DNA of 35,116 nucleotides from Lachnospiraceae bacterium (GTDB lineage: Bacteria > Bacillota > Clostridia > Lachnospirales > Lachnospiraceae): NCBI GenBank assembly GCA_017436865.1, contig JAFSCH010000097.1:1-35116 (forward strand), given 5' to 3'. The position numbers and the translations under genes were made by a program. Shown here one piece after another: positions 7,904 through 31,617 of the stretch; the stretch's first letter is position 1; every line of letters starts with the position of its first letter. The notes below the pieces were generated by a model. It worked only from the letters and a program-made list of their open reading frames with translations. It was not told the origin of the DNA and made no database searches.

Positions 7904-8053
7904 GTAACTGTTCAGCAGGAATACGCATTTTACTGCGGATTCCATAGGAAAATGTAGTATGCATAAGTAAAAATCCCTTTACGATGCAAATTTGAATGGA
8001 TTATTGTATCGCATCTTCGATGCCAAGTAATTATGAAGGTACTGGATAATTAC
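7904..8053. repeat. palindromic intergenic element, copy A (MITE-like)
   Basis: The left end GTAACTGTTCAGCAGG and the right end GTACTGGATAATTAC are imperfect inverted repeats. The first internal hairpin is GGAATACGCA/TGCGGATTCC (7918-7943). The second, AAAAATCC..GGATTATT, is degenerate and is followed by an extra small hairpin GCATC-TTC-GATGC. It fills most of the gap between the DUF4015 gene and rsmI. No flanking direct repeat is evident, so this is probably an old copy. Confidence 0.75.
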
Positions 8054-8112
8054 AATGAAATAGGACAAGCGAGAAGTTATATAAGTAATGGTTATAGAGA
8101 GGAATATATCAT

Positions 8113-8964
8113 ATGGCAGGTAAATTGTATTTGTGTGCAACACCAATCGGTAATTTGCAGGATATGACGCCACGCGTTAGAGAGACTTTGGAAGCAGTTG
8201 ATTTGATTGCAGCAGAGGATACAAGAAACAGCATTAAGCTTTTAAATCATTTTGAGATTAAGACACCAATGACGAGCTATCATGAATATAATAAAGTAGA
8301 AAAGGCAAAATATCTCATAGAACAAATGCAGGAGGGGAAAAATATTGCATTGATTACTGATGCAGGAACTCCTGCAATATCAGATCCGGGTGAAGTATTG
8401 GTTGCAATGTGCTATGAAGCAGGAATTACGGTTACATCACTTCCAGGACCGGCTGCTTGTATTACAGCACTTACCCTTTCCGGATTAAGTACTAGAAGAT
8501 TTTGCTTCGAAGCTTTTCTACCGTCAGATAAAAAAGAAAAAAGGGATGTGCTGGAGGATTTAAAAAGAGAGTCTAGGACGATTATTCTTTATGAGGCACC
8601 ACATCATTTAGTGAGAACATTAGAAGAATTGTATGAAGCTCTTGGGAATCGTAGGGTTACATTATGCAGAGAACTCACAAAACGTTTTGAAACAATTCTT
8701 CCGACTACTTTTGAGGATGCATTAGAAATGTATCAGGAGGAGGAGCCAAGAGGAGAATATGTGCTCGTAGTGGAAGGAAAGAGTCATGAGGACTTTAAAA
8801 AGGAGCAGGAAGCGGACTGGCAGTCGATTTCCATAGAGGAACATATGGCTATTTATGAGCAAAAAGGAATGGATCATAAGGAAGCTATGAAACTTGTTGC
8901 AAAAGATAGAGGAATCTCAAAAAGGGATGTCTATCAATATCTTTTAAAAAGTGTTGACAAATAG
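8113..8964 (+). CDS. rsmI: 16S rRNA 2'-O-ribose C1402 methyltransferase
   Basis: RsmI methylates the 2'-OH of C1402 in 16S rRNA using SAM. The N-terminal tetrapyrrole-methylase-like fold is evident from LYLCATPIGNLQDMT, AAEDTR, SYHEYN, the SAM-site stretch LITDAGTPAISDPG near residues 77-90, and SLPGPAA. The protein has 283 residues, normal for the family. GAGAGGA (8096-8103) precedes the ATG at 8113. It occupies the usual place after the trmN6 homologue. The promoter of the next gene lies in its last codons. Confidence 0.96.
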   Translation: MAGKLYLCATPIGNLQDMTPRVRETLEAVDLIAAEDTRNSIKLLNHFEIKTPMTSYHEYNKVEKAKYLIEQMQEGKNIALITDAGTPAISDPGEVLVAMCYEAGITVTSLPGPAACITALTLSGLSTRRFCFEAFLPSDKKEKRDVLEDLKRESRTIILYEAPHHLVRTLEELYEALGNRRVTLCRELTKRFETILPTTFEDALEMYQEEEPRGEYVLVVEGKSHEDFKKEQEADWQSISIEEHMAIYEQKGMDHKEAMKLVAKDRGISKRDVYQYLLKSVDK

Positions 8965-8982
8965 GAGTGGGAATACTATACT
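8954..8982 (+). promoter_or_regulatory. sigma-A promoter for acpP
   Basis: TTGACA at 8954-8959 is followed after exactly 17 bases by TATACT at 8977-8982. The -35 overlaps the 3' end of rsmI. This is the best consensus promoter in the window and sits about 35 bases before the acyl carrier protein gene. Confidence 0.8.
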
Positions 8983-9018
8983 TCGTATTGTCAATCAACG
9001 GAAGAAAGGAGTGTTGAA

Positions 9019-9252
9019 ATGGAAAGAGTATTTGAAATCATTGAGGAACAGTTACATTTAACAGGTGTTCAGATTACAGAAGATTCATCATTTAAGGATG
9101 ATTTAGGAGCTGACTCTATAGATTTAGTTGAATTAGTAATGGCATTTGAAGATGAGTTCGGTGTAGAAGTATCTTACGAAGAATTAGAGAAGAAGGTTAA
9201 GACTGTTGGCGATGCAATCGAGTTCTTAAGAGAGCAGGGTGCTGATATTTAA
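9019..9252 (+). CDS. acpP: acyl carrier protein
   Basis: This 77-residue acidic protein carries growing acyl chains in fatty acid synthesis on a phosphopantetheine arm. The attachment serine is in DLGADSIDLVELVM, near residue 36. AAAGGAG (9005-9011) precedes the ATG at good spacing. The gene is monocistronic: its own promoter overlaps the end of rsmI and a terminator follows its stop. No other fatty acid genes are adjacent, so it may be either the main ACP or a paralogue. Confidence 0.93.
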   Translation: MERVFEIIEEQLHLTGVQITEDSSFKDDLGADSIDLVELVMAFEDEFGVEVSYEELEKKVKTVGDAIEFLREQGADI

Positions 9253-9278
9253 GCAGAGTCTGACATATATGGAATGCA

Positions 9279-9308
9279 AAGAGATCCTAAATAGGGGTCT
9301 CTTTTTTA
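9279..9308 (+). terminator. intrinsic terminator of acpP
   Basis: AAGAGATCC pairs with GGGTCTCTT around a 7-base loop and is followed by a T-run. It lies 26 bases after the acpP stop. Confidence 0.85.
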
Positions 9309-9464
9309 TTCCATAGGAAAGTGCTGTAGCGTAGTGGCAGTTAGACAAGAATTTCGTAAGAAATTCTTGCCAAAGTGCGTGCGCTGGCACGCACTATTTG
9401 TTCTATATTAGTAGTTAGTAATAAATTTGCTATCTGTTTATCAAGAGTACAGGATAGTTACAAT
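9309..9464. repeat. partial palindromic element with two perfect hairpins (copy E)
   Basis: ATTCCATAGGAAA at the left is identical to the middle of copy A, and the right end GTACAGGATAGTTACAAT matches copy A's right end at 16 of 18 bases. The left inverted repeat is missing, cut where the acpP terminator begins. The internal hairpins differ from those of copies A-C: CAAGAATTTC-GTAA-GAAATTCTTG (9346-9369) and AGTGCGTGC-GCTG-GCACGCACT (9374-9395), both perfect. No gene is seen between 9253 and 9512. Confidence 0.55.
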
Positions 9465-9512
9465 ATTTGTAAGAAATAAAGCATAGAATAAATAAAATAG
9501 ATATTTAGGTAA

Positions 9513-10187
9513 ATGAATATGATGAATTATTTATGGGGTGGCATGTTGGTTATTGGTATTGTGTATGGTGCACTTACTGGTAATATGCAGGCAATTACGG
9601 ACTCAGTATTAAACTCTACAAAAGAAGCTGTAACATTAAGTGTTGCTATGCTTGGAATTGTTTCTTTTTGGAGCGGATTGATGGAGGTAGCAGTGGATGC
9701 AGGGGTGATGGAATCCATGATGAGATTGCTAAATCCGTTTTTACATTTTTTATTTCCAAAGATTCCAAGTGGTCATGCGGCATTAAATGCAATAGGTGTT
9801 AATTTTGTTGCTAATATTTTAGGACTTGGCTGGGCAGCAACTCCGGCAGGACTAAAAGCAATGAAGGAGTTGGCACAGTTGGAAAGGGAACGGGGAAATA
9901 AAGCATTTTATGGAGAAGAAATAAGAATTAATAAAAAAGAGGATAACTTGATAGAAAACAGAATTGCAAGTAATGAAATGTGTACTTTTCTAGTTATGAA
10001 TATTTCGTCTTTGCAGCTAATACCAGTTAACGTAATTGCGTATCGAAGTCAATATGGCAGTGTAAATCCTGCAAGTATTATTTTGCCGGGAATAATAGCA
10101 ACATTAATAAATACAGTAGTAGCTGTAATATATTGCAAAATGGTAAGTATTCAGGACAGGTCGAAGAACTTATTGCTGAGACCGTAA
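9513..10187 (+). CDS. spmA: spore maturation protein A
   Basis: This integral membrane protein of about 224 residues belongs to the nucleoside-recognition (Gate) family. SpmA with SpmB is needed for dehydration of the spore core. Typical segments are TKEAVTLSVAMLGIVSFWSG, HFLFPKIPSGHAALNAIG with ILGLGWAATPAGLKAM, and the C-terminal segment PASIILPGIIATLINTVVAV. In-frame ATGs at 9513, 9519 and 9522 are available; AGGT at 9507-9510 best suits 9519 or 9522. Its usual partner spmB is not next to it but 9.1 kb downstream on the same strand. Both look intact, so function may persist from separate transcripts. Confidence 0.9.
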   Translation: MNMMNYLWGGMLVIGIVYGALTGNMQAITDSVLNSTKEAVTLSVAMLGIVSFWSGLMEVAVDAGVMESMMRLLNPFLHFLFPKIPSGHAALNAIGVNFVANILGLGWAATPAGLKAMKELAQLERERGNKAFYGEEIRINKKEDNLIENRIASNEMCTFLVMNISSLQLIPVNVIAYRSQYGSVNPASIILPGIIATLINTVVAVIYCKMVSIQDRSKNLLLRP

Positions 10188-10266
10188 GAGTATGATATAA
10201 GAGTGCAAAAAGCTTATTGAAAAGCAATTCGGAATACTTTTTATATGTTACAGTTATTGTTAAAAA

Positions 10267-10399
10267 GTAACTATTCAGTAGGAATACGCATTTACTGCGG
10301 ATTCCGTGAGAAAATGTAGAATGATTAAGCAAAAATCCATTTGTGAAGCAAATTTAGGATGGATTTTTGCCTGTAATTATGAAGGTACTGAATAATTAC
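10267..10399. repeat. palindromic intergenic element, copy B, with 8-bp flanking repeat
   Basis: This is the clearest copy, 133 bp long. The ends GTAACTATTCAGTA and TACTGAATAATTAC are inverted repeats matching at 13 of 14 positions. Internal hairpin one is GGAATACGCA/TGCGGATTCC and hairpin two is GCAAAAATCCAT/ATGGATTTTTGC. GTTAAAAA lies directly outside both ends (10259-10266 and 10400-10407), as expected for a target-site duplication. It sits between spmA and the promoter of the zinc-ribbon operon. Confidence 0.85.
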
Positions 10400-10417
10400 G
10401 TTAAAAATAATAATAAC

Positions 10418-10446
10418 TTGTATACATTTTAAATAGATGATAAAAT
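10418..10446 (+). promoter_or_regulatory. sigma-A-type promoter of the envelope operon
   Basis: TTGTAT at 10418-10423 and TAAAAT at 10441-10446 are separated by 17 bases. They lie 87 bases upstream of the zinc-ribbon gene and just outside the copy B repeat, so this operon has its own promoter independent of spmA. Confidence 0.5.
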
Positions 10447-10532
10447 TAATAGAATAGCACAAAAATGCTCAGAGAGCGTTAGAACAAAAGAATAATGCAT
10501 ACAAGTGCTTAGAAACTAATGAGGAGGATAAA

Positions 10533-10931
10533 ATGGCAAGCTTTAGAGAATCGTTATCGAAAGGATTAACTACCATAAATGTTAAGACAAATAATTTTAT
10601 GGAAGAGTCTAAGTGCAAAACGTATATTTCAACGTTAGAAAAGGAAATTCGTGATTTGAAATTAAATCTAGGTGATATCATGTATGGAAGCTGGCTTTCT
10701 GGTGAGTCAGATGAAACTGCACTTCAGACAATTATGGAACAAATAAAGCAGAAATACGAAGAAATAGAGCAGCAGAAAAAGATAATGGAACAGCTAACTA
10801 TTTCAGAACAACAAATTCTGGGAACAGGATCAAATGTGCAGACTGGCGCAATGATTTATTGTGCACAGTGTGGTGCACAGAATGCATCAAATTATAAATT
10901 CTGTTGTAAATGCGGAAAAGCTTTAGGATAA
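10533..10931 (+). CDS. coiled-coil zinc-ribbon protein
   Basis: This 132-residue protein has a helical, charged region at about residues 25-100 that is probably a coiled coil, and a C-terminal zinc ribbon of the form YCAQCGAQN..FCCKCGKAL. The two CxxC pairs bind one zinc. There is no membrane segment. GAGGAGG (10521-10527) is ideally spaced from the ATG. It is the first gene of a five-gene cluster coding mainly for membrane and secreted proteins. Small zinc-ribbon proteins of this sort occur next to membrane proteins in Clostridia, but their role is not known to me. An adaptor role on the inner face of the membrane is only a guess. Confidence 0.75.
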   Translation: MASFRESLSKGLTTINVKTNNFMEESKCKTYISTLEKEIRDLKLNLGDIMYGSWLSGESDETALQTIMEQIKQKYEEIEQQKKIMEQLTISEQQILGTGSNVQTGAMIYCAQCGAQNASNYKFCCKCGKALG

Positions 10932-10964
10932 AGAATTTACATAAGAAGAGAGAGGAGATAAAAT

Positions 10965-12923
10965 ATGAAATTTGATCCAATTACAGGGGAATTGATAAAT
11001 GATACCCTGGAGAATGAAGTACAAGAGCAGATTGTACAGAAGCAAGAAAATATGGCTTTTGATCCTATTACAGGGGAATTAGTTTCTAAAAGTGCAGAGG
11101 AGCAGGCTGGAGAAAAAGAAGCTACAGTAGTAGAGACATCTGTAAAAGAGGAAACGGTAATTGTACATGAGCCGGTAAAAGAAGAGACTATAGTAGAGGA
11201 ACATGTGAAAGAGGAATCTGTATTAATAGAACAGACTGTATCAGAGCTACCTCAGTCAGGTGAAGGATTTGATCCAATGACAGGTCAACCAATAGGTCAG
11301 CAGACACAGTCAAGTGGAGGATTTGACCCAGTGACAGGTCAGCCAATAGGTCAGCAGACACAGTCAAGTGGAGGATTTGACCCAATGACAGGTCAGCCAA
11401 TAGGTCAGCAAACACAGTCAAGTGGAGGATTTGATCCAATGACAGGTCAGCCAATAGGTCAGCAGACACAGTCAAGTGGAGGATTTGATCCAATGACAGG
11501 TCAGCCATTAGAGCAGCAGACACAGTCAAGTGGAGGATTTGATCCAATGACAGGTCAGCCATTAAGCCAGCAGCCCCAACAAGAAAAGAAGAGTAAAAAC
11601 AAGATGTTGCCAGTGATAGGTGCGGTTGTTGCAGTAGTAGCTGTATTAGTATTAGTTGTTGGTTTATTTGTTAGTGGAGTATTTTCCGGACCAGCTGGAC
11701 AAATAAGAAGAGCAACCCTAAAAACATTTAAAGAGATGCCTCATTTTGTACAGGATTTACAAGGGCTTAGTATGTTAGCAGATGATAAATATACTCTTGG
11801 GGTAAAGATGACAATGGAAGAGGAGAGTATAGAAGCTGAATTGCGTTCTAAGGCTTCCGAAAAACAGATTTATGCTAAAATAAATGTTGATGATGTTCCT
11901 GAAATGACTCTTCTTGCAGGAATTAATGAAAGCGAAGTAAAGCTTCAGATTCCTGAATTACTTGATCAGGTTTTAGTATATAATTTTAAAGACAAGAATA
12001 AGGGCTATATAACGGAAGAGGCTGACGAAGAAAGTCTTGAAATGATAAATTCCTTATTAGAAGACATAAATGCTGGTAGCATGAAGTCAAAAAAATATTC
12101 TGCAGAACTTTGCGAAGTTTTCTTAAAAGAATTTAACTCTTTAGAATTTGAAAAGGCAGATAAAGAACAGTATCGTGTTGACGGAGAAAAGAGAAACTGT
12201 AAAGGCTACATAACCAAGATCAAAGAAAAGAATGTAGTAAACATCATTGATGGAGTGGAAAAAGTAGTTAATAAGTATATAGATGAGAGCATGAAAGATG
12301 CCTTAGAAGAGTCAGGAGATAGCTTGGAAGATCTCTTTGATGATATGCGTGATGATGTTGAAGATATGGAAGATATTGAGATTAGTTTTTATCTTTATAG
12401 GGGCATGCTTGCCAGCATTAAGATGGAAAATACGGATACAGATGCTACAATGGAAGTATTATTTAAGGGCGGAGATTATCGTGCACAAAATATTGAGCTT
12501 GTAGAAGAGAATGATTATGGTGAGAGTAGCTTTGAAATGAAGGGATCTGTATCTGATTCAACAGAAAAATTCAAATTTATCAGCAATGGTAATAAGGATA
12601 GCGCATTAGAAATTAAGTATGACTATAAGAGCGGAGATTTTGAAGTTCAACAGGATAGTTATACAGATATTGATATAAAGGGAAATCTCAAGAGTTCTGC
12701 TTCTGATCTTGTGGTCAAGTTTGAAAAGTATGAGTATGGATATGATACGCTTGATGGTGCGGAACTGGAGATAACATTGTCTAACCGTGTTAAAATGGGC
12801 AAGTTTAAAGGAAAAGAGTTTGATTTAGGAAATGCTTCAGAAGAAGATATGGAAGATTTTGCAGAGGATCTGGAAGATGCTATGTATGACAATGATTTAG
12901 AAGATTTAATGGAATATTTCTAA
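10965..12923 (+). CDS. membrane protein with FDPxTG repeats and extracellular domain
   Basis: This is a 652-residue protein of unknown function. The N-terminal, presumably cytoplasmic part (residues 1-205) has two FDPITGEL motifs near residues 3 and 32, then an acidic stretch, then six tandem 18-residue units of the form GGFDPMTGQPIGQQTQSS. A single membrane helix follows at about residues 212-236 (PVIGAVVAVVAVLVLVVGLF). The remaining 410 residues would lie outside the cell; they are acidic with alternating short strands and resemble no domain I can name with confidence. The C-terminus is very acidic (EDLEDAMYDNDLEDLMEYF). A good ribosome site lies upstream. It is 33 bases after the zinc-ribbon gene and before the pseudokinase gene, from which an intercistronic hairpin separates it. 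Confidence 0.75.
   Translation: MKFDPITGELINDTLENEVQEQIVQKQENMAFDPITGELVSKSAEEQAGEKEATVVETSVKEETVIVHEPVKEETIVEEHVKEESVLIEQTVSELPQSGEGFDPMTGQPIGQQTQSSGGFDPVTGQPIGQQTQSSGGFDPMTGQPIGQQTQSSGGFDPMTGQPIGQQTQSSGGFDPMTGQPLEQQTQSSGGFDPMTGQPLSQQPQQEKKSKNKMLPVIGAVVAVVAVLVLVVGLFVSGVFSGPAGQIRRATLKTFKEMPHFVQDLQGLSMLADDKYTLGVKMTMEEESIEAELRSKASEKQIYAKINVDDVPEMTLLAGINESEVKLQIPELLDQVLVYNFKDKNKGYITEEADEESLEMINSLLEDINAGSMKSKKYSAELCEVFLKEFNSLEFEKADKEQYRVDGEKRNCKGYITKIKEKNVVNIIDGVEKVVNKYIDESMKDALEESGDSLEDLFDDMRDDVEDMEDIEISFYLYRGMLASIKMENTDTDATMEVLFKGGDYRAQNIELVEENDYGESSFEMKGSVSDSTEKFKFISNGNKDSALEIKYDYKSGDFEVQQDSYTDIDIKGNLKSSASDLVVKFEKYEYGYDTLDGAELEITLSNRVKMGKFKGKEFDLGNASEEDMEDFAEDLEDAMYDNDLEDLMEYF
11265..11577 (+). 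repeat. 54-bp tandem repeat coding for the FDPxTG units
   Basis: Units begin at 11265, 11319, 11373, 11427, 11481 and 11535; the last is incomplete. Each is 54 bases (18 residues). They are nearly identical in DNA, including at silent positions, which suggests recent expansion or ongoing homogenisation. The minus strand of this array stays open for more than 120 codons purely because of the repeat. Confidence 0.95.
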
Positions 12924-12939
12924 GCAGCATAGGAACTAT

Positions 12940-12993
12940 AATTGCCAAAAGGAAGGTAAGGTTATGAAATCCTTCCTTCTGGCAATTTGTTTT
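12940..12993 (+). terminator. intercistronic terminator-like hairpin
   Basis: AATTGCCAAAAGGAAGG (12940-12956) pairs with CCTTCCTTCTGGCAATT (12971-12987), with one A-C mismatch, and is followed by TGTTTTG. It lies between the FDPxTG gene and the pseudokinase gene. It could be a partial terminator that lowers expression of the downstream genes, or an mRNA-stabilising hairpin. Confidence 0.6.
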
Positions 12994-13015
12994 GAAAGGA
13001 AAAGGGAGAGAGAAC

Positions 13016-15250
13016 ATGGATATGAAAAATACAAGTCATTTAAGTGTAAATACAACCTTAGGTAGTAGATATGTGGTAGGCCTTGTTTTAGGAAATAACC
13101 ATCTTGGTCTTACCTATATGGGATATGATAATGTGTTAAATAAAAAAATTGCAATTAAAGAATATTTTCCGGAAGAAATTGCAACAAGAAATGAGAATAT
13201 TGTATCGGGAAAGGATTCTTTTGCGGAGGGATTACAGAAGTTTATTCAGGAAGGTAATATCTTAAAAGCAAAGAAAAGTCTTTCAGGTATTGTAGAAGTA
13301 TTCGATGTACTGGAAGAAAATGGAACTGCTTATATAATTATGGAGTATGTAGAAGGAACAAGTCTTGAGGAAATCGTAAAAGGTGGAAGACTATTTCCAA
13401 TGCAGAGAATGCAAGATTTATTAGAGCCTGTATTAAAGTCTTTATATGAATTACATGAAGCAGGCTTGGTTCACCAAAATATTTCATCGGATAATTTGAT
13501 TTTTACCAATGAAGGAACTTTGAAATTAATTGGATTTGGCTGTCAGGAAGGCATCGTATCGGATAAGTGCAGAGGATATGCGCCAGTGGAACAGTATGAA
13601 AAGCAAGACAATAGAAAACCAAGCATTGATGTTTATGCTATATGTGCTGTTATATATCGTTGCATTACAGGAAAAATCCCTGTAGAGGCATCCAAAAGAA
13701 AGGAACAGGAGGAACTTCTTACTCCGAGTAGCATGGGTATAGAGGTTAGTGAAGTACAGGAAGCTGTTATTATGATGGGACTTTCTATTAAAGCTGAAAA
13801 GAGGCTTCAGGGAATAAAGGCATTGTATCGTGCACTGTATGGTACTGCAATGAATAGTGAGATAAAGGTGGAGACTAGTACAACACCAGTAAAGGAAGAA
13901 ATTAAGGAAAAACCGATAACAGAAAAGGTAATAAAATCAGAAGATAAGAAAGAACCAGTAATAGAAAACACAGCAGAACCAAAAGCTAAGGAAGAGCCGG
14001 CAACAATAAAGCTGGCAGATACACAAGTGTATGAATCACAACAGCCAACACCAATGCAGCAGCCTGTTCAGATGGATGTACAAAAATCTGGAAAAAAGGA
14101 AAAGAAAAAAGGAGCAAATAAAGGTCTTATTATAGGAATTTGTGTTGCTCTTGTATTATTCGTCGTAGTCATTGGTGGAGTGCTTGTGGCATTCAGATTG
14201 TATTCAGGAAAGATTTCAACAAAGTTAATGGTGAACAAGACAACAGAAAATGTAGAAACATCAGAAACAACAGAAACTGTTGTAGAAGAGTCTGTTGCAG
14301 CAGAAAAAGTTAATAAACTTCAAGAGATTAAGGATACACTGGCAAAGAAAGACTATATTGGTGCTATTGATATGGTAACTGCTCTTTCAGATGAAGAAAA
14401 GGCGACTTGCGATGAAACAGAGATAGCATCTGTTTTAAAAGAAGCTGTAGAAGGTGTAAAAAGTTCACTTATTACAGAAATTGATGATTATGTAAATGCT
14501 GCAAACTATACGGAAGCATTTTCTGTTATTACAGATGGCATTACTTATTTTGGCATGCTTGGTGAAAAAGAAGCGCTAGCTGACTTGGCGGATACTCAGT
14601 TCTTAAAAGATAAGGAAAAAGAGGTTCAGCAAAAGCATAAAGACTATTTGAATACAACAGCAGAAAGTTGTGCAAATCAGGCAGATGAAGCAGGTATGGA
14701 AGCGGCTTTAGCGGATTTGGCTTCTTATTTAGAGACAGAGGAGCTGGAAGCAAAGAAAACAAAGTGTTATGGAAAGCTTGTAGTTGCAAAGATGACACAG
14801 ATGAGAAATAATGGTTCGTCTACAGAGGAAATTCTTGCTTTTATTAAAGACAATCTTGCTAAGACAGGAAATAACTGTTGGGTTCTTGAGTTCTGGGATT
14901 ATTATAATACAGTATATGCAATGGAAAGTGGTAAGGGAATCTCAACAGATACAACAATTAAACATGCATCTAAGGAGGGATATCTTTTAGAGTATAGTAA
15001 TACAAAGAATCTCACGAAAGATGATATTAAGCATTTATCAGAGTATGAATTATATCTTTCATTATATGAGATTTATGCTCGTCATGGAAGAGGATTCAAT
15101 GATGCATCTGTAACTTCATATTTTTCTCAGTATGACTGGTATCAGGAAACTACTAGACCGGAAGTATTTGATGAATCAATTTTAAATGAATATGAGAAGT
15201 ATAATAGAGACCTTATTATTGAATACCAATATGAGAAGGGTTATCGTTAG
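13016..15250 (+). CDS. transmembrane Ser/Thr pseudokinase with C-terminal YARHG domain
   Basis: The 744-residue protein has an N-terminal protein-kinase fold (about residues 15-280), a membrane helix at about 370-392, and an extracellular part ending in a YARHG domain that contains the literal motif YARHG plus FSQYDWY. The kinase keeps the ATP-anchoring lysine K48 (IAIKEYFPEE) and the activation-segment motif GYAPVEQY. The catalytic loop, however, reads HQN (H153-N155) in place of HRD, and the metal-binding DFG reads GFG (G173-G175). Both catalytic aspartates are therefore missing and the protein is predicted to be a pseudokinase. The start at 13016 is preferred over an upstream TTG because GGGAGAG lies just before it. 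It is the central gene of the envelope operon. A scaffold or ATP-sensing role is inference. Confidence 0.85.
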   Translation: MDMKNTSHLSVNTTLGSRYVVGLVLGNNHLGLTYMGYDNVLNKKIAIKEYFPEEIATRNENIVSGKDSFAEGLQKFIQEGNILKAKKSLSGIVEVFDVLEENGTAYIIMEYVEGTSLEEIVKGGRLFPMQRMQDLLEPVLKSLYELHEAGLVHQNISSDNLIFTNEGTLKLIGFGCQEGIVSDKCRGYAPVEQYEKQDNRKPSIDVYAICAVIYRCITGKIPVEASKRKEQEELLTPSSMGIEVSEVQEAVIMMGLSIKAEKRLQGIKALYRALYGTAMNSEIKVETSTTPVKEEIKEKPITEKVIKSEDKKEPVIENTAEPKAKEEPATIKLADTQVYESQQPTPMQQPVQMDVQKSGKKEKKKGANKGLIIGICVALVLFVVVIGGVLVAFRLYSGKISTKLMVNKTTENVETSETTETVVEESVAAEKVNKLQEIKDTLAKKDYIGAIDMVTALSDEEKATCDETEIASVLKEAVEGVKSSLITEIDDYVNAANYTEAFSVITDGITYFGMLGEKEALADLADTQFLKDKEKEVQQKHKDYLNTTAESCANQADEAGMEAALADLASYLETEELEAKKTKCYGKLVVAKMTQMRNNGSSTEEILAFIKDNLAKTGNNCWVLEFWDYYNTVYAMESGKGISTDTTIKHASKEGYLLEYSNTKNLTKDDIKHLSEYELYLSLYEIYARHGRGFNDASVTSYFSQYDWYQETTRPEVFDESILNEYEKYNRDLIIEYQYEKGYR

Positions 15251-15263
15251 GAAGGAGTAACAT

Positions 15264-22750: not shown

Positions 22751-22786
22751 TTTGGTAAGAAAAGGCATGATTAAAATTTGCGTTAC

Positions 22787-22906: not shown

Positions 22907-22919
22907 TTAAGTCTATAAT

Positions 22920-22942: not shown

Positions 22943-23050
22943 TAAACAAGGTGAAAAGGAGATAAAAATATAAAATAAGCAACAAAAAGAAAAAATAAAA
23001 ATAGCAATATGTACAAAAAACGAGAAAAGAATTCGGTTATATATACAAAA

Positions 23051-23093: not shown

Positions 23094-23104
23094 GTAGATG
23101 CAAG

Positions 23105-23118
23105 GTAGCTGTTCAGCA
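23105..23118 (+). repeat. isolated left-end sequence of the palindromic element
   Basis: GTAGCTGTTCAGCA differs from the left end of copy A (GTAACTGTTCAGCA) at one base. No internal hairpin or right end follows. It lies in the presumed 5' leader of the broken sugar-binding protein gene. Confidence 0.35.
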
Positions 23119-23172
23119 AGGAAGGTATTGAATTGGTTGCATTGTGAATTATTAAAAAGTGGAGGAAAAGGT

Positions 23173-23648
23173 ATGAAACTAAAAAAGTATTGGCGGTGTT
23201 TATGACAACTGCAATGACAGTGGGTATGTTAGCAGGATGTGGAGATGGAAAAGAAACAGCAGTGAATGAGCAAACGGAAGCGCAGCAAGCAGAAGTAAAA
23301 AGCGAAGAAACTACACAGACGACAGATGCTATAGAAAATTCTGACTTGTCAGGTGTACAGATTTCTTTTTTAAATACCAAGGGTGAGGTACAGACAGCAC
23401 TGGAAGAAATGGCAGAAGTTTTTAAAGAAGAGACAGGAATCGAAGTTGAGATTCTTGCATGTGGAACGGGTGAATCACCTTATACAAAAGTAACAAGTGC
23501 ATATAATTCTGGTACAGCGCCAACAATGGCAATGCTGGATAACACAGATATCGTTTCATTAGCAGAGGAATATGCGGTGGATTTATCAGCAGAGTCATGG
23601 GTTGCAGATTGTGAAGGTCAGACAATGAGTGTGAACGGAACTATTTGA
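23173..23648 (+). pseudogene. broken sugar ABC transporter binding lipoprotein
   Basis: A ribosome site (GGAGG) and an ATG at 23173 start the frame, but after MKLKK the frame is lost. The A-run at about 23180-23186 appears one base short; adding an A restores a lipoprotein signal leading to MLAGCGDGK. The rest reads as the N-terminal 130 residues of a family 1 solute-binding protein (SFLNTKGEVQTALEEMAEVF, ETGIEVEI, GTAPTMAMLDN). Similarity stops at about 23638, where the sequence joins the middle of a sucrose phosphorylase gene. The gene is thus frameshifted and truncated. The two permease genes expected to follow are absent. Confidence 0.85.
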
Positions 23649-24547
23649 CAACATTATGTCAGCATGGAGCATCCATGATTCGACTAGATGCATTTGCGTA
23701 TGCTACAAAGAAAGCAGGAACAAGCTGTTTCTTTATTGAACCAGATGTATGGGAATTTATAGAAGAATGTCAGGAAATTGTAGCTCCTTATGACGTTACT
23801 TTATTACCCGAAATACATGAGCATTATACCATGCAGACAAGAATTGCAGACAAGGATTATTTTGTTTATGATTTTGCACTTCCTATGCTTTTGATTAATG
23901 CGTTGTATTATGGAAAAACAGAGTACTTAAAGAATTGGTTATCCATTTGTCCAAGAAAGCAGTTTACAACGCTGGATACGCATGACGGAATCGGTGTTGT
24001 GGATGTAAAGGATTTGTTACCGGATGAAGAAATTGAACGTACGAAGGAAGATATTTTTAAGTTTGGGGCAAATGTAAAGAAGATTTATAATACAGCTGCA
24101 TATAATAATCTTGATATTTATCAGGTGAATTGCTCTTATTATTCTGCTTTAGGTGATGATGATGCAGCGTATTTGTTAGCTCGTGCGGTACAGTTTTTTG
24201 CACCTGGTATTCCACAGGTATACTATGTAGGCTTACTGGCTGGTAAAAACGATTTAAAACTTTTGGAAGAAACGAAGGTGGGACGTAATATTAACCGCCA
24301 TTATTATACGACAGAAGAGATAGAGGAAGAAGTAAAGCGTCCTGTAGTAAAAGAATTAATTCGTCTGATGGAATTCCGTAATACACATAAAGCATTTGAT
24401 GGAGCATTTGAACTTGAAACGTGTGGGGAAAAAGAATTGCATATTGTAAGAACATGTGGAGAAGAACGAGCAGAGCTTTTTGCAAATTTTGATACAAAAG
24501 AATTTACAATTACTTATAGTGAGAATGGGACTATAAAAACATTATAA
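23639..24547 (+). pseudogene. 3' part of sucrose phosphorylase (GH13)
   Basis: About 300 codons match the C-terminal part of sucrose phosphorylase, which is normally near 490 residues and converts sucrose and phosphate to glucose 1-phosphate and fructose. The nucleophile segment IRLDAFAY, the acid/base segment LLPEIHEHY and TTLDTHDGIGVVD are intact. The first third of the catalytic barrel is missing. The frame is joined out of phase to the sugar-binding protein fragment. A TTG at 23645 could start translation but has no ribosome site, and the product would lack barrel strands, so it is probably inactive. Confidence 0.85.
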
Positions 24548-24562
24548 ATAAAGGGATTTGCC

Positions 24563-26056
24563 ATGGAAAAAAGAATCGCTATAAAGCAGGAATATTTGAG
24601 CATTCCAATTAAGGTAGGAGAGCGTAATAAGCTTTTTGAGATCTTTATCGAGAAGGAAGATGAGAAAGAAAAACTTTTTGAATTTCAGATACCTATAGGT
24701 GAGACTGGAAAAAACGACTATGTAGGAGACTATGATGTATATTTACCAGTAAAGCAATTTATTGGGCAGACATTAATGCTACAAGGAGATATGCAGGAAG
24801 AGTTTTTGACTGCAGTTAGAAATGTTTCTAATCAGAAACATCAAGAAGAATCTTCACGTCCATTGCTTCATTTTACACCAGAAACTGGCTGGATGAATGA
24901 TCCGAATGGACTAGTATATAAAGATGGAGTATATCACCTTTATTTTCAATACAATCCTTTTCATATTCAATGGGAAAATATGTCATGGGGACATGCAGTA
25001 AGTACAGATTTATTGCATTGGGAACAGAAAGATACTGTTTTATTTCCAGATGAAACAGGAACCATGTTTTCAGGAAGTGGCATCGTAAACGAAAAGGGAA
25101 TGCTCGGGTTGCCACAAGAAGCGCTATTATTCTTTTATACGGCAGCAGGAAGTAGCAATATTTGGAGTAAGGGAAAAGATTTCGGGCAGTATATGGCTTA
25201 TAGTCTGGATGGTGGAAAAACGCTTGTTAAAACAAAGAAAGAAGTGTTAACAAGCGTATGTAAAGAGAATAGAGATCCTAAGGTGTTTTGGCATGAGGAA
25301 AGTAAAGCATATATTATGGTTTTGTGGTTAGAAAAGAATGACTTTGGAATCTTTCGTTCTATAGATTTAGAGAACTGGAATCAAACGGATAAAATTACAT
25401 TAGAACAAGGCTTTGAGTGTCCTGATTTGTTAAAGCTTTTTGACCAGGATGGCAAAGAACATTGGGTTTTCTGGAGTGCTGATGGATATTATTACTGGGG
25501 AGAATTTGACGGATATCAGTTTAAGACAACAGGAGAACGGCAGAAGGCATACATGAATGAAATTCCTTATGCAGCTCAAACATATTCTGGGACAGTAGGT
25601 CGAACGATTCAGATTCCATGGCTTCGTATTCCTAATACAGGGAAAAAATATACAGGAGCAATGGGATTACCAAGAGAACTTAGTGTATTGTGTAGAGAAG
25701 AAGAAAGACTGCTAAGGCAAAAACCAATAAGAGAAATAGAAGAGTGGAAAAAATCACATGCTCATATGGTATCAGAATATATGGATGAGAATATGCAAGT
25801 AAGCGTAATTTGTACGGATGATAAGAAATTTTCTGTTGATAAGAGCAATGCATGTAAAGGAAAGTATTGCTGGAAGATTGATAAGCTAAATGTAGCATAT
25901 GATATGGAAAAAGGTTTCTTTACGGTAGGAAATAAAACACTTATTATACCGCAAAATATAAGGGATTTTTTGTTTATAGTAGATGATGATATCTTTGAAG
26001 TAACAGCAGATTGTGATACAATAGTGGGAGTATTTTTATTGGCTGATCCTGATTAG
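24563..26056 (+). CDS. GH32 beta-fructosidase (sucrose/fructan hydrolase)
   Basis: This 497-residue cytoplasmic enzyme has no signal peptide and releases fructose from sucrose or short fructans. GH32 landmarks are all present: WMNDPNG with nucleophile D113, MFSGSG, the transition-state stabiliser D238 in NRDPKVF, and the acid/base E285 in FECPDL. About 95 residues precede the catalytic propeller and could be a small extra domain. The C-terminal beta-sandwich seems shorter than usual. AAAGGGA lies at an acceptable distance before the ATG. It follows the sucrose phosphorylase fragment by 15 bases and is 13 bases before the LacI gene. With phosphorylase lost, it is probably the remaining route for intracellular sucrose cleavage. 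Confidence 0.93.
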   Translation: MEKRIAIKQEYLSIPIKVGERNKLFEIFIEKEDEKEKLFEFQIPIGETGKNDYVGDYDVYLPVKQFIGQTLMLQGDMQEEFLTAVRNVSNQKHQEESSRPLLHFTPETGWMNDPNGLVYKDGVYHLYFQYNPFHIQWENMSWGHAVSTDLLHWEQKDTVLFPDETGTMFSGSGIVNEKGMLGLPQEALLFFYTAAGSSNIWSKGKDFGQYMAYSLDGGKTLVKTKKEVLTSVCKENRDPKVFWHEESKAYIMVLWLEKNDFGIFRSIDLENWNQTDKITLEQGFECPDLLKLFDQDGKEHWVFWSADGYYYWGEFDGYQFKTTGERQKAYMNEIPYAAQTYSGTVGRTIQIPWLRIPNTGKKYTGAMGLPRELSVLCREEERLLRQKPIREIEEWKKSHAHMVSEYMDENMQVSVICTDDKKFSVDKSNACKGKYCWKIDKLNVAYDMEKGFFTVGNKTLIIPQNIRDFLFIVDDDIFEVTADCDTIVGVFLLADPD

Positions 26057-26069
26057 GAGGTAATGAATT

Positions 26070-27047
26070 ATGGCGACATTAAAGGATGTGGCAAGAGAGA
26101 CTGGGCTGACAGTTAGTACAGTATCCCGCGTATTGAATAATAGAGGATATATCAGTGAACAAACAAGAGAAAATGTATATCGGGCCATGGAAAAACTTAA
26201 TTATCATCCTAATGAAGTTGCACGTTCTCTTTCAAAACAGACAACGAATACCATTGGTGTGATTGTTCCACATATAAAACATCCTTATTTTGCAGAGTTG
26301 ATTAGCAATTTAGAGAGTCAGGCATATCTTCATAAGCATAAAATTTTACTATTTAATTCCCAAGAAAAAAATGAAAAAGAATGGGAATATTTAGAAATGT
26401 GTTCTAGTAATCGAGTGGCCGGCATTATTCTTTGTAGTGGCACGGTAGGGGCTGAAAAATTTACAGGATTAAATGTGCCACTGGTTACAATAGAATGTAC
26501 TTTAGAGAATGGAACAGCTGCTGTTGAATGTGACAATAGACAAGGTGGGAAATTGGCTGCAAAGCATTTGATTGAATTAGGATGTAAGCAGTTAATACAT
26601 ATTAGTGGTGTTCATGGTAACGCTATGCCTGCGGATGATAGAGCTGCGGGATTTTGTGAAGTTTGTAAGCAAAAAGGAGTAGATTATAAAGTAGTTGATA
26701 CAGAAGCAGATCAATATAATAATCTGGAATATCATGAGATATTGGAGAGATTACTACAAGAGAATTCGGATACAGATGGTATCTTTGTTAGTAGTGATTT
26801 GATTGCAGCACAGCTATTGCAAGTATGTAAGAAACTTAATATTTCAGTGCCAGAGAAGTTGAAGATTGTGGGTTTTGATGATGTTAATATTGCATCACTT
26901 ACAACACCGCCAATTACAACGATTCACCAGCCTATTAAGGAAATGGCGAAGATGGCGATAGAGCTATTGATAAGTGCAGGTGAAGGAAATATTGTATCGA
27001 GTCGTACCATATTGCCGGTAGCGCTAGTGAAAAGAGAAACTACTTAG
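26070..27047 (+). CDS. LacI-family repressor of the sucrose/fructan genes
   Basis: The 325-residue protein has the classic LacI helix-turn-helix TLKDVARETGLTVSTVSRVL (residues 3-22), the hinge NEVARSLSKQ, and a periplasmic-binding-like sensor domain starting TIGVIVPHIKHPYF. It resembles ScrR-type sucrose repressors. GGAGG lies 9-14 bases before the ATG. It is co-transcribed with the GH32 gene (13 bases) and fructokinase (12 bases). The paired TCAACCG operators at 22920 and 23051 have the CG-centred form expected for this class. The ligand is inferred from neighbours. Confidence 0.9.
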   Translation: MATLKDVARETGLTVSTVSRVLNNRGYISEQTRENVYRAMEKLNYHPNEVARSLSKQTTNTIGVIVPHIKHPYFAELISNLESQAYLHKHKILLFNSQEKNEKEWEYLEMCSSNRVAGIILCSGTVGAEKFTGLNVPLVTIECTLENGTAAVECDNRQGGKLAAKHLIELGCKQLIHISGVHGNAMPADDRAAGFCEVCKQKGVDYKVVDTEADQYNNLEYHEILERLLQENSDTDGIFVSSDLIAAQLLQVCKKLNISVPEKLKIVGFDDVNIASLTTPPITTIHQPIKEMAKMAIELLISAGEGNIVSSRTILPVALVKRETT

Positions 27048-27059
27048 TTTGGAGAGCAT

Positions 27060-28028
27060 ATGAAAAAGAAATATGATGTAGTTGCATTAGGAGAGTTGTT
27101 AATTGATTTTACTGAGAATGGAATTAGTACGCAAGGGAATTCTGTTTTTGAGGCAAATCCAGGTGGGGCACCTTGTAATGTTCTGGCAATGTTGCAGAAA
27201 TTAGGACATGGTACAGCATTTCTTGGAAAAGTGGGCGATGATATATTTGGACATAGATTATGTAACGTACTTGACGAGGTTGGAATTGATAGAAGTGGAT
27301 TAATAATAGATAGGGAAGTACGCACTACGTTAGCTTTTGTTGAAACAAAACCAGATGGAGATAGGGACTTTTCTTTTTATCGTAATCCGGGGGCAGATAT
27401 GATGCTGCGAGAGGAAGAATTACAGGAAGACTTATTAAAAGAGGCGCGTATTTTTCATTTTGGAACTCTTTCTATGACACATGATCCTGTACGTTTGGCA
27501 ACAAAGAAAGCAATAAAAATTGCGAAGGAAGCAGGAGCAATTTTGTCATTTGATCCTAATTTAAGAGAGCCTTTGTGGGATTTCTTAGAAGATGCAAAGG
27601 AATGTGTGCGAGAAGGATTATCTGTTTGTGATATCCTAAAAATTTCGGATAATGAGATTCAATGGTTTACTGGAAAAGAAGATTACACAGAGGGAGTGCG
27701 AATGATACAGGAAGAGTATAAAATCCCTTTCATTCTGCTCTCAATGGGTAAAGAAGGAAGTCGTGCATATTATAAAGATCGCATAGTTGAAGTAAAGCCC
27801 TTTTTACAAGAAAATACAATAGAAACGACGGGTGCAGGTGATACGTTTGGAGGAGCTTGTCTGCACTATATTTTAGAGCATGGGTTATCTGATTTGCAGG
27901 AAGAACAGCTTAAAGAAATGCTGACATTCGCGAATGCAGCAGCTTCTATTATTACAACACGTAGAGGTGCATTGCGTGTTATGCCAACACAGATAGAAAT
28001 AGAACAATTAGTTCAACGCATGAAATAG
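27060..28028 (+). CDS. PfkB-family fructokinase
   Basis: This 322-residue ribokinase-family sugar kinase probably phosphorylates fructose to fructose 6-phosphate. Features are the N-terminal VVALGELLIDFTENG, the substrate loop NPGGAPCNV, RNPGADMML near residue 120, and the C-terminal signature TTGAGDTFGGA with the catalytic Asp near residue 260. GGAG precedes the ATG by 6-9 bases. It is the last gene of the sucrose operon and is followed by a terminator. Its presence supports a locus that yields free fructose. Confidence 0.93.
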   Translation: MKKKYDVVALGELLIDFTENGISTQGNSVFEANPGGAPCNVLAMLQKLGHGTAFLGKVGDDIFGHRLCNVLDEVGIDRSGLIIDREVRTTLAFVETKPDGDRDFSFYRNPGADMMLREEELQEDLLKEARIFHFGTLSMTHDPVRLATKKAIKIAKEAGAILSFDPNLREPLWDFLEDAKECVREGLSVCDILKISDNEIQWFTGKEDYTEGVRMIQEEYKIPFILLSMGKEGSRAYYKDRIVEVKPFLQENTIETTGAGDTFGGACLHYILEHGLSDLQEEQLKEMLTFANAAASIITTRRGALRVMPTQIEIEQLVQRMK

Positions 28029-28031
28029 CAG

Positions 28032-28084
28032 TCTGGCAGTATATCTATTTTAGTTATATGAGATATACTGCTAGATTTTTTTTG
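28032..28084 (+). terminator. intrinsic terminator of the sucrose operon
   Basis: TCTGGCAGTATATCT pairs with AGATATACTGCTAGA (one G-T pair), followed by a run of T. The 213 bases from here to the next gene are AT-rich and show no further feature that I can support. Confidence 0.85.
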
Positions 28085-28297
28085 GAGTATTAAAAACTGA
28101 CAATAAAACAAGGGTGATTGTACAAAGTGACGAATGACAATAAATAAAAGAAAATAATTATACAAAATATTGTAAAAAAACAAATTATAAGATATCATAT
28201 TAAATATAATAATTGAATTCTGTATTCTTTCGACGGAAAATTAGGAATGTTTAAAGTACATTTTTAATCCAAAAAATGCTTTGAGAGGAGAAATGAG

Positions 28298-29614
28298 ATG
28301 AAAAAGTATTCAAAATTATTTATTGCGTTCTTTTTATGTTTTCTTATGCTGACAGGATGCAATACAAGCAAGGAAGAAGCCAAGGTTTATTATTTGAATT
28401 TTAAACCGGAAGTAGCAGATGTATGGGAAGAAATTGCAGAACTATACACGCAAGAAACTGGGGTGGAAGTAAAGATACTTACGGCACCAAGTAATGGTAA
28501 CGCTCAAGCATTAAAAGCTGAAATTGCAAAAAGGGATGCTCCTACCATTTTCCAAATTAATGGACCAGTGGAATTTGAGGATTGGAAAAATTATTGTGTT
28601 GATTTAAGTGATACAGAATTGTATTCATGGTTAAAAGATAAGAGTATGGCAATATCGGATGAAACAGGAGTTTATGGTATGCCATACGTAGTAGAAGGAT
28701 ATGGAATTATTTATAACGATGCCATTATGCAGAAATATTTCTCATTGGCAAGTAGAAGCACGAAATATAAATCTATGGATGAAATAAATACATATGCCAA
28801 GTTAGAAGAAGTAGTAAAAGATATGACAGAACATAAAAATGAGCTGGGTATTCAGGGGGTATTTGGTTCAACTTCTTTCTTTAAAGGAGAAGACTGGAGA
28901 TGGCAGACACATTTAACAAATCTTCCAATTTATTATGAGTATAAGGATAAAGGGGTAAATGATTTAGAAACTATTGATTTTTCATATGGCAATAATATGA
29001 AAAAAATATTTGATTTATATTTAGATTATTCATGTACTCCTAAGTCAGAAGTTAAGAAAAAAACAGTAAATGATTCTATGGAAGAGTTCGCACTAGGTAA
29101 GTGTGCAATGGTACAAAATGGTAATTGGGCTTGGACACAGATTGCTTCCGTAAGCGGCAATACCGTTACAGAAGACAATTGTAAATATCTCCCAATCTAT
29201 ATTGGAGCAAAGGGAGAGGAAAACCAAGGGCTTTGTATTGGTACAGAGTGCTATATGTGTATTAATAATATGGTGAGTGAGGAATCTCAGCAGGCCTCTA
29301 TTGATTTTATAGAATGGCTTTATAGTTCAGATATAGGTAAAGACTATGTTACAAACAAACTTCAATTCATCACGGTGTTTAATACATTTAGTGATGAAGA
29401 AACACCATCGAATCCGTTGGCAAGACAGGTATCCCAGTATGTTAGTGATGAATCTCTTTCTTCTGTAAGTTGGAATTTTACTACATTTCCTAGTCAAGGA
29501 TATAAAGATAAGTTATCAGAACATTTGCTTATGTATATTAATGGGGAAATGGATTGGAGTGGAGTTAGTAAGTATGTTGTAGACCAGTGGAATGCTGAAA
29601 AAAGTGGAAAATAG
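28298..29614 (+). CDS. extracellular solute-binding lipoprotein (family 1)
   Basis: This 438-residue lipoprotein has a signal peptide ending in the lipobox LMLTGCN (Cys near residue 21). The fold of a family 1 solute-binding protein follows ([57 protein letters not shown]). Such proteins usually deliver sugars to an ABC transporter. Here no permease or ATPase gene is nearby. The next gene, 11 bases on, is a chemoreceptor, so the pair may work as a ligand receptor for chemotaxis. AGAGGAG precedes the ATG. The ligand cannot be told from sequence; its position after the sucrose locus hints at a sugar. Confidence 0.88.
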
Positions 29615-29625
29615 AGGAGGACGCT

Positions 29626-31308
29626 ATGAATAGTAAAGCTAAGGGACTTTCAATTGCAAATAAAGTAACGATGCTAATTGCCTGTACATCTATTACTTTG
29701 ATGGTTGCAATATTGGTTGTAGCATACATAATTAATAGTAAAAATATAATTGAATTATGCGAAAGTTATTTGTATGATACATGTATTTCAGCATCAGATA
29801 CCTTGTATGAAAGCTTTTTTGGAGAAGATGATCTGAGTGAATTACAGGTTCGCTTGGAATATATTTTGAATAACGTTGGTATTAATACGATGGATTCGAG
29901 TACCTGTTATTTAGTTGATTCACAGGGAACATATTTATATGCTAGAGATGATAGTTTATTAGGAACTGTGATTTCCAATAATGAAGTAGTACAAGAGGTA
30001 TTAAATACATTGGCTAATGGTAAGATAACCACAGCAGATGTTCGTCAGTGTGTTGTTGATGGAAAAGAAGTGTATATTTCTTTTATTTGTACCGTAAACG
30101 ATTGGATTTTGGTAGTACAGGCTGATAAAGATGATGTTATGAAGCCAATTACGACTATAAATATCTGGTGTATTTCTATAGGAATGATTTTACTGGTGGT
30201 ATCATTGGTAATTGGTATTATCTTTACACAGATTATCACAAAACCAATCAAGGTATTAACTTCTGTTATTAATGATATTTCTGAACTTAATATGTCTTCA
30301 GATAAGAAGATACCACATACAAAAGATGAGATTGGTACAATGGCACAGGCAGTAGAAACGATGAAAGAAACACTTTCTTCTATTGTTAATGAGTTAAACG
30401 ATATTTCAGGAGTTTTGGTAGATGATTCTAATAGCTTAGCTGAAATTTCGCAAAAGGTTAATGATGCTTCCTCTGAGAACTCAGCAACGAATCAAGAACT
30501 TGCGGCTAGTATGGAAACTACTTCTTCAGCAGCAAATTCTATGAATAATAGAATTCAGAATATCAATTCTACGATTTCAGATGTTGCTGATAAGATAGAC
30601 AACGGAACAGAACTTACGGGACAAGTTATGGAAAAGAGCATTGGCATTAAAGAAACAACGAAAAAAGCCAGTGAAGATACTATTAATCTGTTTGGAACAA
30701 TTCGAGAGTCATCGCAAGAAGCGATTCTTAGGGCTAGAGACGTGGAAAAGATTAATTCGCTTGCCAATACGATTCAAGATATTGCAGAACAGACAAATTT
30801 ACTTTCGCTAAATGCCTCTATTGAAGCGGCAAGAGCAGGTGATGCTGGAAGAGGATTTGCTGTAGTAGCAGATGAAATTTCTAAATTGGCTCATCAGACA
30901 ACGGATACAAGTTCTGGAATCTTGGTTATAGCAGAGCAGGTAAACGAATCCGTAGAAGTTCTTACGGATAGTCTTGTAAAAGTCTTAGACTTTATGAAGA
31001 ATAATGTAATGGGTGATTATGAAGACTTTATTAAGTCCAGTGATGAATATAGTGAAGCAACAGAAACAATTGAGCAGTTTATGAATAGTGCCAATGCGCA
31101 AATTAATGAAATCAGGTCAGATATTAATAGCATTGCAGGAATGATTTCGGGTATTAGTAGTAATATTAGTGAATGTTCTGTCGGAGTAAATGACATAGCG
31201 ATGAAGACAACCGATGTAGTAAGTCTGACGATAGAAACACATGAGAGAACAATGAACTGTAAGAACTTAGCAGAGAAGTTACGTGAGATTACATCAAGAT
31301 TTCATTAA
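29626..31308 (+). CDS. methyl-accepting chemotaxis protein
   Basis: This 560-residue transmembrane chemoreceptor has TM1 at about residues 17-39 and an extracellular sensor region at 40-176 with Cache-like character ([36 protein letters not shown]). TM2 lies at about 177-201, HAMP at about 202-257, and the cytoplasmic signalling coil reaches the C-terminus. The hairpin tip is well conserved ([20 protein letters not shown], then [11 protein letters not shown]). There is no C-terminal CheR pentapeptide. GAGGAGG precedes the ATG. It is co-transcribed with the solute-binding lipoprotein gene and followed by a terminator. Confidence 0.95.
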
Positions 31309-31323
31309 TGAATAAGTATGAAT

Positions 31324-31351
31324 GAGGCAGGATTATCCTGCCTCTGTTTTT
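31324..31351 (+). terminator. intrinsic terminator after the chemoreceptor gene
   Basis: GAGGCAGG and CCTGCCTC form a perfect 8-bp stem with a 5-base loop, followed by TGTTTTT. Confidence 0.85.
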
Positions 31352-31372
31352 CGGCACTTACCATATAAATGT

Positions 31373-31407
31373 TTGGCGTATTGTTTAAAAATACTATAAT
31401 TATAGTA
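31373..31407 (+). promoter_or_regulatory. promoter overlapping a 16-bp palindrome
   Basis: TTGGCG (31373-31378) and TATAAT (31395-31400) are 16 bases apart. The -10 lies inside the perfect palindrome TACTATAATTATAGTA (31392-31407), a possible operator. If used, it gives the transglutaminase gene a leader of about 380 bases containing repeat copy C and a terminator hairpin. Confidence 0.45.
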
Positions 31408-31484
31408 AAATTAATGGAATTATTTGTACAATTAAAACTATTCAGAATAAAAGGATAAAGACCGATATATTATATAGATTGTTA

Positions 31485-31617
31485 GTAACTATTCAACAGG
31501 AAGACGCATTTACTGCGTATTCCGTGAGAAGATGTAGTATGAATAAGCAAAAATCCATTTGCGAAGCAAATTTGGAATGGATTTTTGTATGTAATTATGA
31601 AGGAACTGAATAATTAC
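31485..31617. repeat. palindromic intergenic element, copy C (MITE-like)
   Basis: At 133 bp this copy has the same length as copy B and nearly the same sequence. The ends are GTAACTATTCAACAGG and GAACTGAATAATTAC. Hairpin one is GGAAGACGCA/TGCGTATTCC and hairpin two is CAAAAATCCAT/ATGGATTTTTG. The 8 bases outside each end, GATTGTTA and AATTATTA, agree at 6 of 8 positions, as a decayed target duplication would. Confidence 0.85.

Follow-up and report, generated by a model that had tools for sequence, protein, structure and literature searches.

The window analyzed here, a 35,116-nt stretch of DNA from a Lachnospiraceae bacterium, carries three copies of a short palindromic element on its forward strand: A (150 bp, 7904..8053), B (133 bp, 10267..10399) and C (133 bp, 31485..31617). 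These are the coordinates that a preliminary description had given them, and, as it had stated, all three lie between the main ORFs; the small antisense ORFs that overlap copies A and B are probably spurious. A covariance model scores the copies at 123, 160 and 154 bits, respectively, values that are partly circular since the model was built from A, B, C and their relatives. Copy B, the reference copy, is framed by an 8-bp target duplication, GTTAAAAA, on its left (10259..10266) and right (10400..10407) on the forward strand, and its inverted ends, GTAACTATTCAGTA and TACTGAATAATTAC, agree at 13 of 14 bases. The two internal hairpins previously assigned to each element are also present; on the forward strand of copy B they correspond to core hairpin 1 (10281..10305) and core hairpin 2, with a third helix inside (10329..10370), followed by a 27-bp right-end palindrome (10373..10399) whose final 16 bp agree with the right end of an IS66 element at 15/16 positions. 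Folding of this copy is more stable than expected both as DNA (z -6.5) and as RNA (z -5.9), with 0/200 shuffles folding as well. The flanks agree at 5/8 positions in copy A, in which an extra small hairpin precedes the right-end palindrome (8027-8053), and at 6/8 in copy C.

The window also holds, on the forward strand, a degenerate copy of a second subfamily (10143..10263; E 2e-7), which covers the 3′ end of an ORF (9513-10187), and a truncated copy consisting of the left end and hairpin 1 (34819..34863; E 2e-6), which continues into another repeat family. An extra copy at 33407-33517 is doubtful (E 0.007). Positions 9305-9465 belong to a separate repeat family; the "copy D" for which the preliminary description gave no coordinates may be this repeat or the degenerate copy at 10143-10263.

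Numerous copies with common ends throughout the genome had been named as a sign of mobility, and the results show at least 88 matches in a model search of the host genome and 42 in a blastn search with copy B. The family was matched in 31 of 38 genomes of the host genus, and its folded core in 58/299 sampled genomes of the bacterial family (58 of the 298 genera sampled); the right-end motif also occurs, among the matches listed, in other Lachnospiraceae. The element is short (133 bp), multicopy and devoid of a transposase gene, which it is too small to encode. A blastn search of plasmids with one element and a search of viral contigs with the 27-mer pattern gave no match, and literature searches gave no lead on the element, the listed matches to four end strings having unrelated titles.

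Target duplications show that the family is mobile: an exact 8-bp duplication flanks 22/38 full copies, compared with 0.6 expected by chance, and a duplication of at least 7/8 flanks 29/38 (chance 1.2), leaving nine of the 38 below 7/8. The proposed variation in presence was seen only at the level of species: the element of site A is missing in genome G029, and the place in G000 orthologous to an insertion in G027 is free of the element. Intergenic sequence in G029 and G036 is too diverged for a clean reading of a single pre-insertion 8-mer.

The preliminary description pictured a cloverleaf closed by both ends. This shape is not supported because, in the host copies, covariation is seen in the right-end palindrome and not in the stem formed by the termini: terminal pairing at position 5 fails in 13 of 31 copies, whereas the 27-nt hairpin at the right end is paired in all 31. 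This palindrome, a part of the element absent from that description, is present in 28/30 loci checked, which represent several end sets. The body of the element is a covarying three-helix core, in which 20/23 pairs are compensated in alignment A3 (0/500 shuffles) and 19/23 in a set of 30 loci, one each from 30 genomes (0/500 shuffles), and which also has conserved unpaired positions. One and the same core carries several IS66-like end sets, and it is found under such different transposon ends in many genera. Searching Rfam 15 with the window returned a tRNA fragment only, with no match for the element, and searching it with six related loci and window positions 7850-10450 returned two sub-threshold, unrelated matches each.

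A full transposon with the same ends had been proposed as a target for searching, and IS66 elements with matching ends indeed exist in related genomes. The right 16 bp of a host copy (L024) are identical (16/16) to the right end of an IS66 element in G168; copy B agrees at all but one of these positions, and the left end of B agrees over 14/14. A GTTAC-type element (L292, genome G038) and the IS66 element L212 of genome G018 are identical over 17 and 15 bp, and within G018 itself the element L281 shares 13 and 15 bp with L212. Exact 8-bp duplications flank the IS66 elements L212, L214 and L223; another, in G090 (L356), has clear ends without a duplication. Among 13 IS66 tails fetched from G102 and read inwards, six end in GTAACTGTTCAGTACC and seven in GTAACTGTTCAGAACT; left ends of IS66 in G102 and in the host were looked for and not found. 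The host assembly contains no complete IS66 element with matching ends: its only PF03050 matches are at C41, where the IS66 element was rejected as a partner since its ends do not match. Otherwise, IS66 is seen in the host assembly only as tails at contig ends, agreeing with the right end of the element at 13/16 positions, and a body for these tails was not found in the assembly. Another candidate, a weak IS66 match in CAMWHJ (L190), was set aside because its best Pfam score is for a Mutator-type transposase. The IS66 tail query was detected in 13/299 genomes of the family and both tail and core in two (G000 and G113), with about 2.5 expected, in a co-occurrence test that is weak either way as the query detects close relatives only. 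No core was present among the matches listed for G102, G168 and G090, the sources of IS66 ends. A related IS66 tail occurs in 67 plasmid records, and a search for it in phages gave no match.

Taken together, the many copies, the shared ends, the 8-bp duplications, the element-free sites and the transposons with the same ends support the MITE-like reading of the preliminary description. We consider it very probable that the copies are non-autonomous, IS66-derived MITEs that IS66-family DDE transposases mobilize in trans, and we hold the IS66 explanation less firmly than we otherwise would because the 16/16 match is confined to one right-end variant (copy B being one base off) and tail and core co-occur at about the chance level. 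According to this model, an IS66 transposase would bind the element ends, cut, and insert the element, and we infer such a mobilizing transposase for the host copies. The termini and the small right-end palindrome have been swapped among lineages, presumably to suit different IS66 transposases.

The elements are mostly co-directional with the flanking genes (44:8), as are the 27-bp palindromes (11:2, or 10:3 under a stricter ORF limit); the ratio in other genera is 14:6, alone not significant, and replication direction or purging could be behind this bias. G-U cells outnumber A-C cells across the alignments (16:1 in the MAFFT alignment A1, with 28:8, 13:2 and 4:1 in the others), in counts that come from rows of common ancestry and, for alignments A2 and A4, from alignments fitted to the model. 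Based on the orientation bias and on this excess, the core most likely folds in the sense-strand transcript, and it may represent cargo, a transposition aid, or a buffer for the effect of the element on neighboring genes. The same two features, together with the covariation (20/23 and 19/23 pairs), the conserved unpaired positions and the single core beneath several end sets, would fit a functional cis-acting RNA, a leader or 3′ UTR element that is kept by cells and that IS66 ends just spread. We regard this role as possible but unlikely: the core occurs in a mere 58 of the 299 genomes, perfect duplications point to recent insertion at many sites, and the very high Watson-Crick purity (G-U making up 0.6-2% of cells) is what pairing at the DNA level would also yield. 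A similarly low probability is given to the hairpins acting as DNA, in cruciform or single-stranded form, during transposition or replication, with either this action or template-switch palindrome correction preserving the pairing. Such a role would agree with the scarcity of G-U cells and with a right-end palindrome that tracks the terminus across several end types, whereas the 16:1 ratio among the related rows of A1 speaks against it, and neither the conserved unpaired positions nor the unpaired hairpin 1 columns are expected from palindrome correction alone. Speculatively, and in our view rather improbably, one structured RNA cassette, fitted anew with ends taken from several separate IS66 lineages, could have spread over much of Lachnospiraceae as a mobile cis-acting module kept for its effect on neighboring transcripts.

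The 27-bp remnants carry 8-bp duplications of their own: of 107 right ends evaluated, 15 are solitary and have a duplication of 7/8 or 8/8, compared with 0.6 by chance, and solitary palindromes occur in 27-bp and 26-bp versions. Both observations could suggest minimal elements that transpose on their own, which we think quite unlikely, given that their left side resembles the terminus over only about 8 bp, that they too are biased towards the sense direction (11:2 or 10:3), and that they fit deletions between 3-8 bp repeats, a similar microhomology of 4-7 bp being found at 4/6 junctions of larger deletion derivatives versus 2.3% at random breakpoints. The remnants are most readily accounted for as products of deletion in place, between short repeats. 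Since the inner arm of the palindrome repeats the left terminus, slippage can remove the body, and would leave a 27-bp (or 26-bp) remnant with the 8-bp duplication still framing it. The palindromic sequence, intergenic position and high copy number of the elements also recall the REP-type palindromes that a Y1 (RAYT) transposase mobilizes, an origin that the 8-bp target duplications make extremely improbable, as Y1 transposases are not known to produce target duplications and REP/RAYT elements lack them.

MITEs are usually regarded as decaying relics whose ends are the sole constrained part. In contrast, the ends of this family vary by lineage and the folded middle is kept, so that the role of this middle becomes directly testable. 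The covariance model can be used for annotating gut genomes, and the family provides a natural archive of IS66 transposition and slippage deletion events. REP, BOX, RUP, ERIC and Correia repeats are, like this family, intergenic, palindromic and present in high copy; they have other termini, and duplications that differ or are lacking, a distinction made here by description and not by sequence. The IS66 family (PF03050; NF033517) resembles the element in its GTAA or GTTA termini and 8-bp duplications, as seen in the copies studied here, and in end sequences that are the same for as many as 17 bp, and differs from it in that the element has no transposase gene. When the element was compared with seven IS66-bearing loci by short-word blastn, interior matches did not exceed 16 bp, except for 28-30 bp stretches in L223, which may represent a copy of the element lying next to the IS. 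As far as the accessible part of the source describes them, MITEPsy1 and MITEPsy2 of Pseudomonas syringae differ from this family in their IS5-like (question-marked in the source) or Tn3-like ends, and neither a covarying core nor an exchange of ends is described for them (PMC3189936). According to the same part, they are nonetheless short, non-coding elements with inverted ends matching those of an IS or transposon, and transposition of MITEPsy1 has been observed (PMC3189936).

The three palindromic, MITE-like elements of about 133 bp claimed in the preliminary description were confirmed at 7904-8053 (copy A), 10267-10399 (copy B, our reference) and 31485-31617 (copy C), and blastn found 42 matches to copy B in the host genome, a 4.2-Mb draft of 169 contigs in which the window is C122. 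Because this draft holds some duplicated contigs (C166 is part of the window again, and C77 and C78 have one element in common), loci L015 and L021 were removed before counting. The proposed covariance-model search, run with a full-element model built from 31 copies (R1), indeed returned many copies: at least 88 in the host, a lower bound since every one of the 88 candidates scored, and matches in 31 of 38 genomes from its genus (the host counted as one of them). A degenerate copy (10143-10263) overlaps the ORF at 9513-10187 (Pfam Gate domain) at its final codons and stop, and a truncated element at 34819 continues into another repeat family (34864-35116; 49 host matches, several near contig ends). 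Three records from human faeces, all labelled Bacteriophage sp., also contain copies, at 82% identity; element L269 is covered whole in two of MT836459, MT837311 and MT839789 and to 92% in one.

To assess mobility, we compared the 8 bases on the left and right of 38 full copies; as a control, right flanks were reassigned at random between copies in 1000 rounds. The flanks were exact duplications in 22 copies (shuffled mean 0.6, maximum 4) and agreed at 7/8 or 8/8 in 29 (mean 1.2, maximum 6). Copy B carries GTTAAAAA on either side, and copies A and C, whose flanks match at 5/8 and 6/8, look like old insertions. Presence or absence between relatives, which the description had proposed to check from strain to strain, was seen at the level of species: G029, a relative with a neighbouring gene 88% identical, has neither the element of site A nor the 9305-9465 repeat, and an element of G027 with an exact duplication is missing from the orthologous place in G000, the latter found with 123 joined-flank queries that gave one more cross-species candidate (L110 versus L176, 71%). 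The repeat at 9305-9465 is itself structured (fold z -4.0) and unlike the A/B/C family; its query (9296-9470) gave 21 blastn hits in fetched host DNA, some in overlapping loci. A tandem repeat of 54-nt period (11191-11622) lies inside the ORF at 10965-12923.

The 27-bp palindrome at the right end (10373-10399 in copy B) also occurs apart from full elements. Among the matches listed, 109 exact 27-mers lie in at least 102 loci of 21 named assemblies, 107 of them evaluable: 41 terminate full elements whose flanks agree at 7/8 or 8/8, 4 terminate shorter derivatives, another 16 come with a left end but lack a duplication, 9 have neither, 24 are edge cases (including the 2 unevaluated), and 15, from 8 assemblies, are solitary and flanked by a duplication of their own (chance 0.6, maximum 4 in 2000 shuffles). 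The host adds two imperfect 26-bp GTTAC-type remnants with 8/8 duplications, among 25 such palindromes seen. When six derivatives (53-113 bp) were compared with their best full copy, four had 4-7 bp of junction microhomology, expected at 2.3% of random breakpoints, and two had 0 and 1 bp, the 0-bp case having a poor parent (15 mismatches). Given this microhomology, and since the 24 27-mers examined fit loss of the sequence between two repeats of 3-8 bp, one at the left terminus and one in the palindrome's inner arm, we prefer in-place deletion over independent hopping as the probable origin of the remnants, and we saw no site with both full and 27-bp alleles.

We then analyzed the predicted fold by covariation. 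In 31 copies aligned with MAFFT (A1), the two internal hairpins with compensated stem changes held up, with 98.8% of cells paired and 42 doubly changed cells (0/500 shuffles). A cloverleaf closed by both ends did not: the 8-bp outer stem showed no covariation above shuffles, its position 5 being broken in 13 of 31 copies, while position 5 of the 27-nt right-end hairpin is C-G in 16, U-A in 15 and broken in none. A second alignment (A2), fitted to the model, holds 83 matches found in other genomes, 80 of which are distinct. Compensated changes occur there at 20 of 26 pairs, in 295 cells versus at most 37 in slid controls; the outer ends agree at position 3, where GTAAC and GTTAC types differ, and at position 5 they conflict in 12 rows. 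The core alone, the three-helix body between the ends, has 20 of 23 pairs compensated in 35 rows (A3; 170 cells, shuffled mean 47) and 19 of 23 in 30 rows from 30 genomes fitted to the model (A4; 130 cells). Scanned against Rfam 15, no element contained a match at the gathering score. Searches of an open-access library listed nothing recognisable as this family; as subscription papers and ISfinder lie outside that scope, priority is not established.

A core-only model (R2) matched 58 of 299 genomes (58 of 298 genera) in a sample taken evenly across Lachnospiraceae, with copy numbers that are lower bounds because filters were stricter and 14 candidates were scored per genome. Around one core in each of 30 positive genomes, host among them, the end sets include GTAACTRTTCAGTACC, GTATCTGTTCAGTACC, GTTACTGTTCACTCC and GTAACAGTTCAGCC, with duplications from an optimising search and thus indicative only. 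A palindrome of 24-33 bp, its arms pairing at 7/8 or 8/8 (shuffled sequence 4%), directly follows the core in 28 loci (L373 and L376 are without it), and the arms are not IS66-like in L362 and L378. In Clostridium transplantifaecale, elements L098 and L123 (141-142 bp) carry the same right-end palindrome but have a body not reported by R1.

Orientation was read for 83 full elements with duplications of 7/8 or better, using simple heuristic calls of ORFs of at least 300 nt. Between co-directional neighbours, 44 elements follow the genes and 8 oppose them (p 4e-7); the rest are convergent (10), divergent (7), within an ORF (3) or unusable (11). The ratio was 36:7 with a 450-nt limit, 11:2 or 10:3 for 24 27-mers, 14:6 in other genera (p 0.12), and 14:4 in same-genus and 25:4 in MAG loci, both overlapping the 83-element set. 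This bias could also reflect the direction of replication, or antisense copies may have been purged. In the stems, G-U cells exceed A-C cells at 16:1 (A1), 28:8 (A2) and 13:2 (A3), related rows not being independent, and at 4:1 in A4, not significant. Taking bias and G-U excess together, we lean towards the view that the elements have a role, or are tolerated, as sense-strand RNA.

The ends point to IS66 elements, which have GTAA ends and 8-bp duplications. Such ends and duplications are found in IS66 copies of C. transplantifaecale (e.g., L185, with tttatacc on either side), and IS66 copies L212, L214 and L223 have GTTAC ends with 8/8 duplications; L189, L211 and L219 of their group have no duplication. 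An IS66 tail of G049 is directly followed by CTGAATAGTTAC, and the 13 tails fetched from G102 end, read inwards, in GTAACTGTTCAGTACC (6) or GTAACTGTTCAGAACT (7). G090 has a whole IS66 of the group to which these tails belong (1824 bp; one 487-codon gene, partly masked, that both NCBIfam and Pfam identify as IS66), and no duplication flanks it. The search for a transposon with the same ends, suggested in the description, gave matching ends in related genomes: a G168 tail terminates in GGTACTGAATAGTTAC, matching host copy L024 at 16/16 and copy B at 15/16, and the ends of L212, from G018, match element L292 of G038 over 17 and 15 bp and L281 of G018 itself over 13 and 15 bp. In the host, seven contig ends carry GTATCTGTTCAGAACC, five of them with an IS66 C-terminus, and 3 of its 16 positions differ in the element's right end; a search of the assembly for the body of this IS66 gave only C41 and did not find it. 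An IS66 tail query, which sees close relatives only, matched 13 of 299 family genomes and the core 58, with both in two (G000 and G113), about the chance expectation; within that reach, this speaks against tight pairing of the element with that IS66. The ends match, but because of the chance-level overlap and the missing host body, the partnership is supported for the class rather than for an exact host element: from sequence comparison, IS66 is a well-supported candidate source of the transposase.
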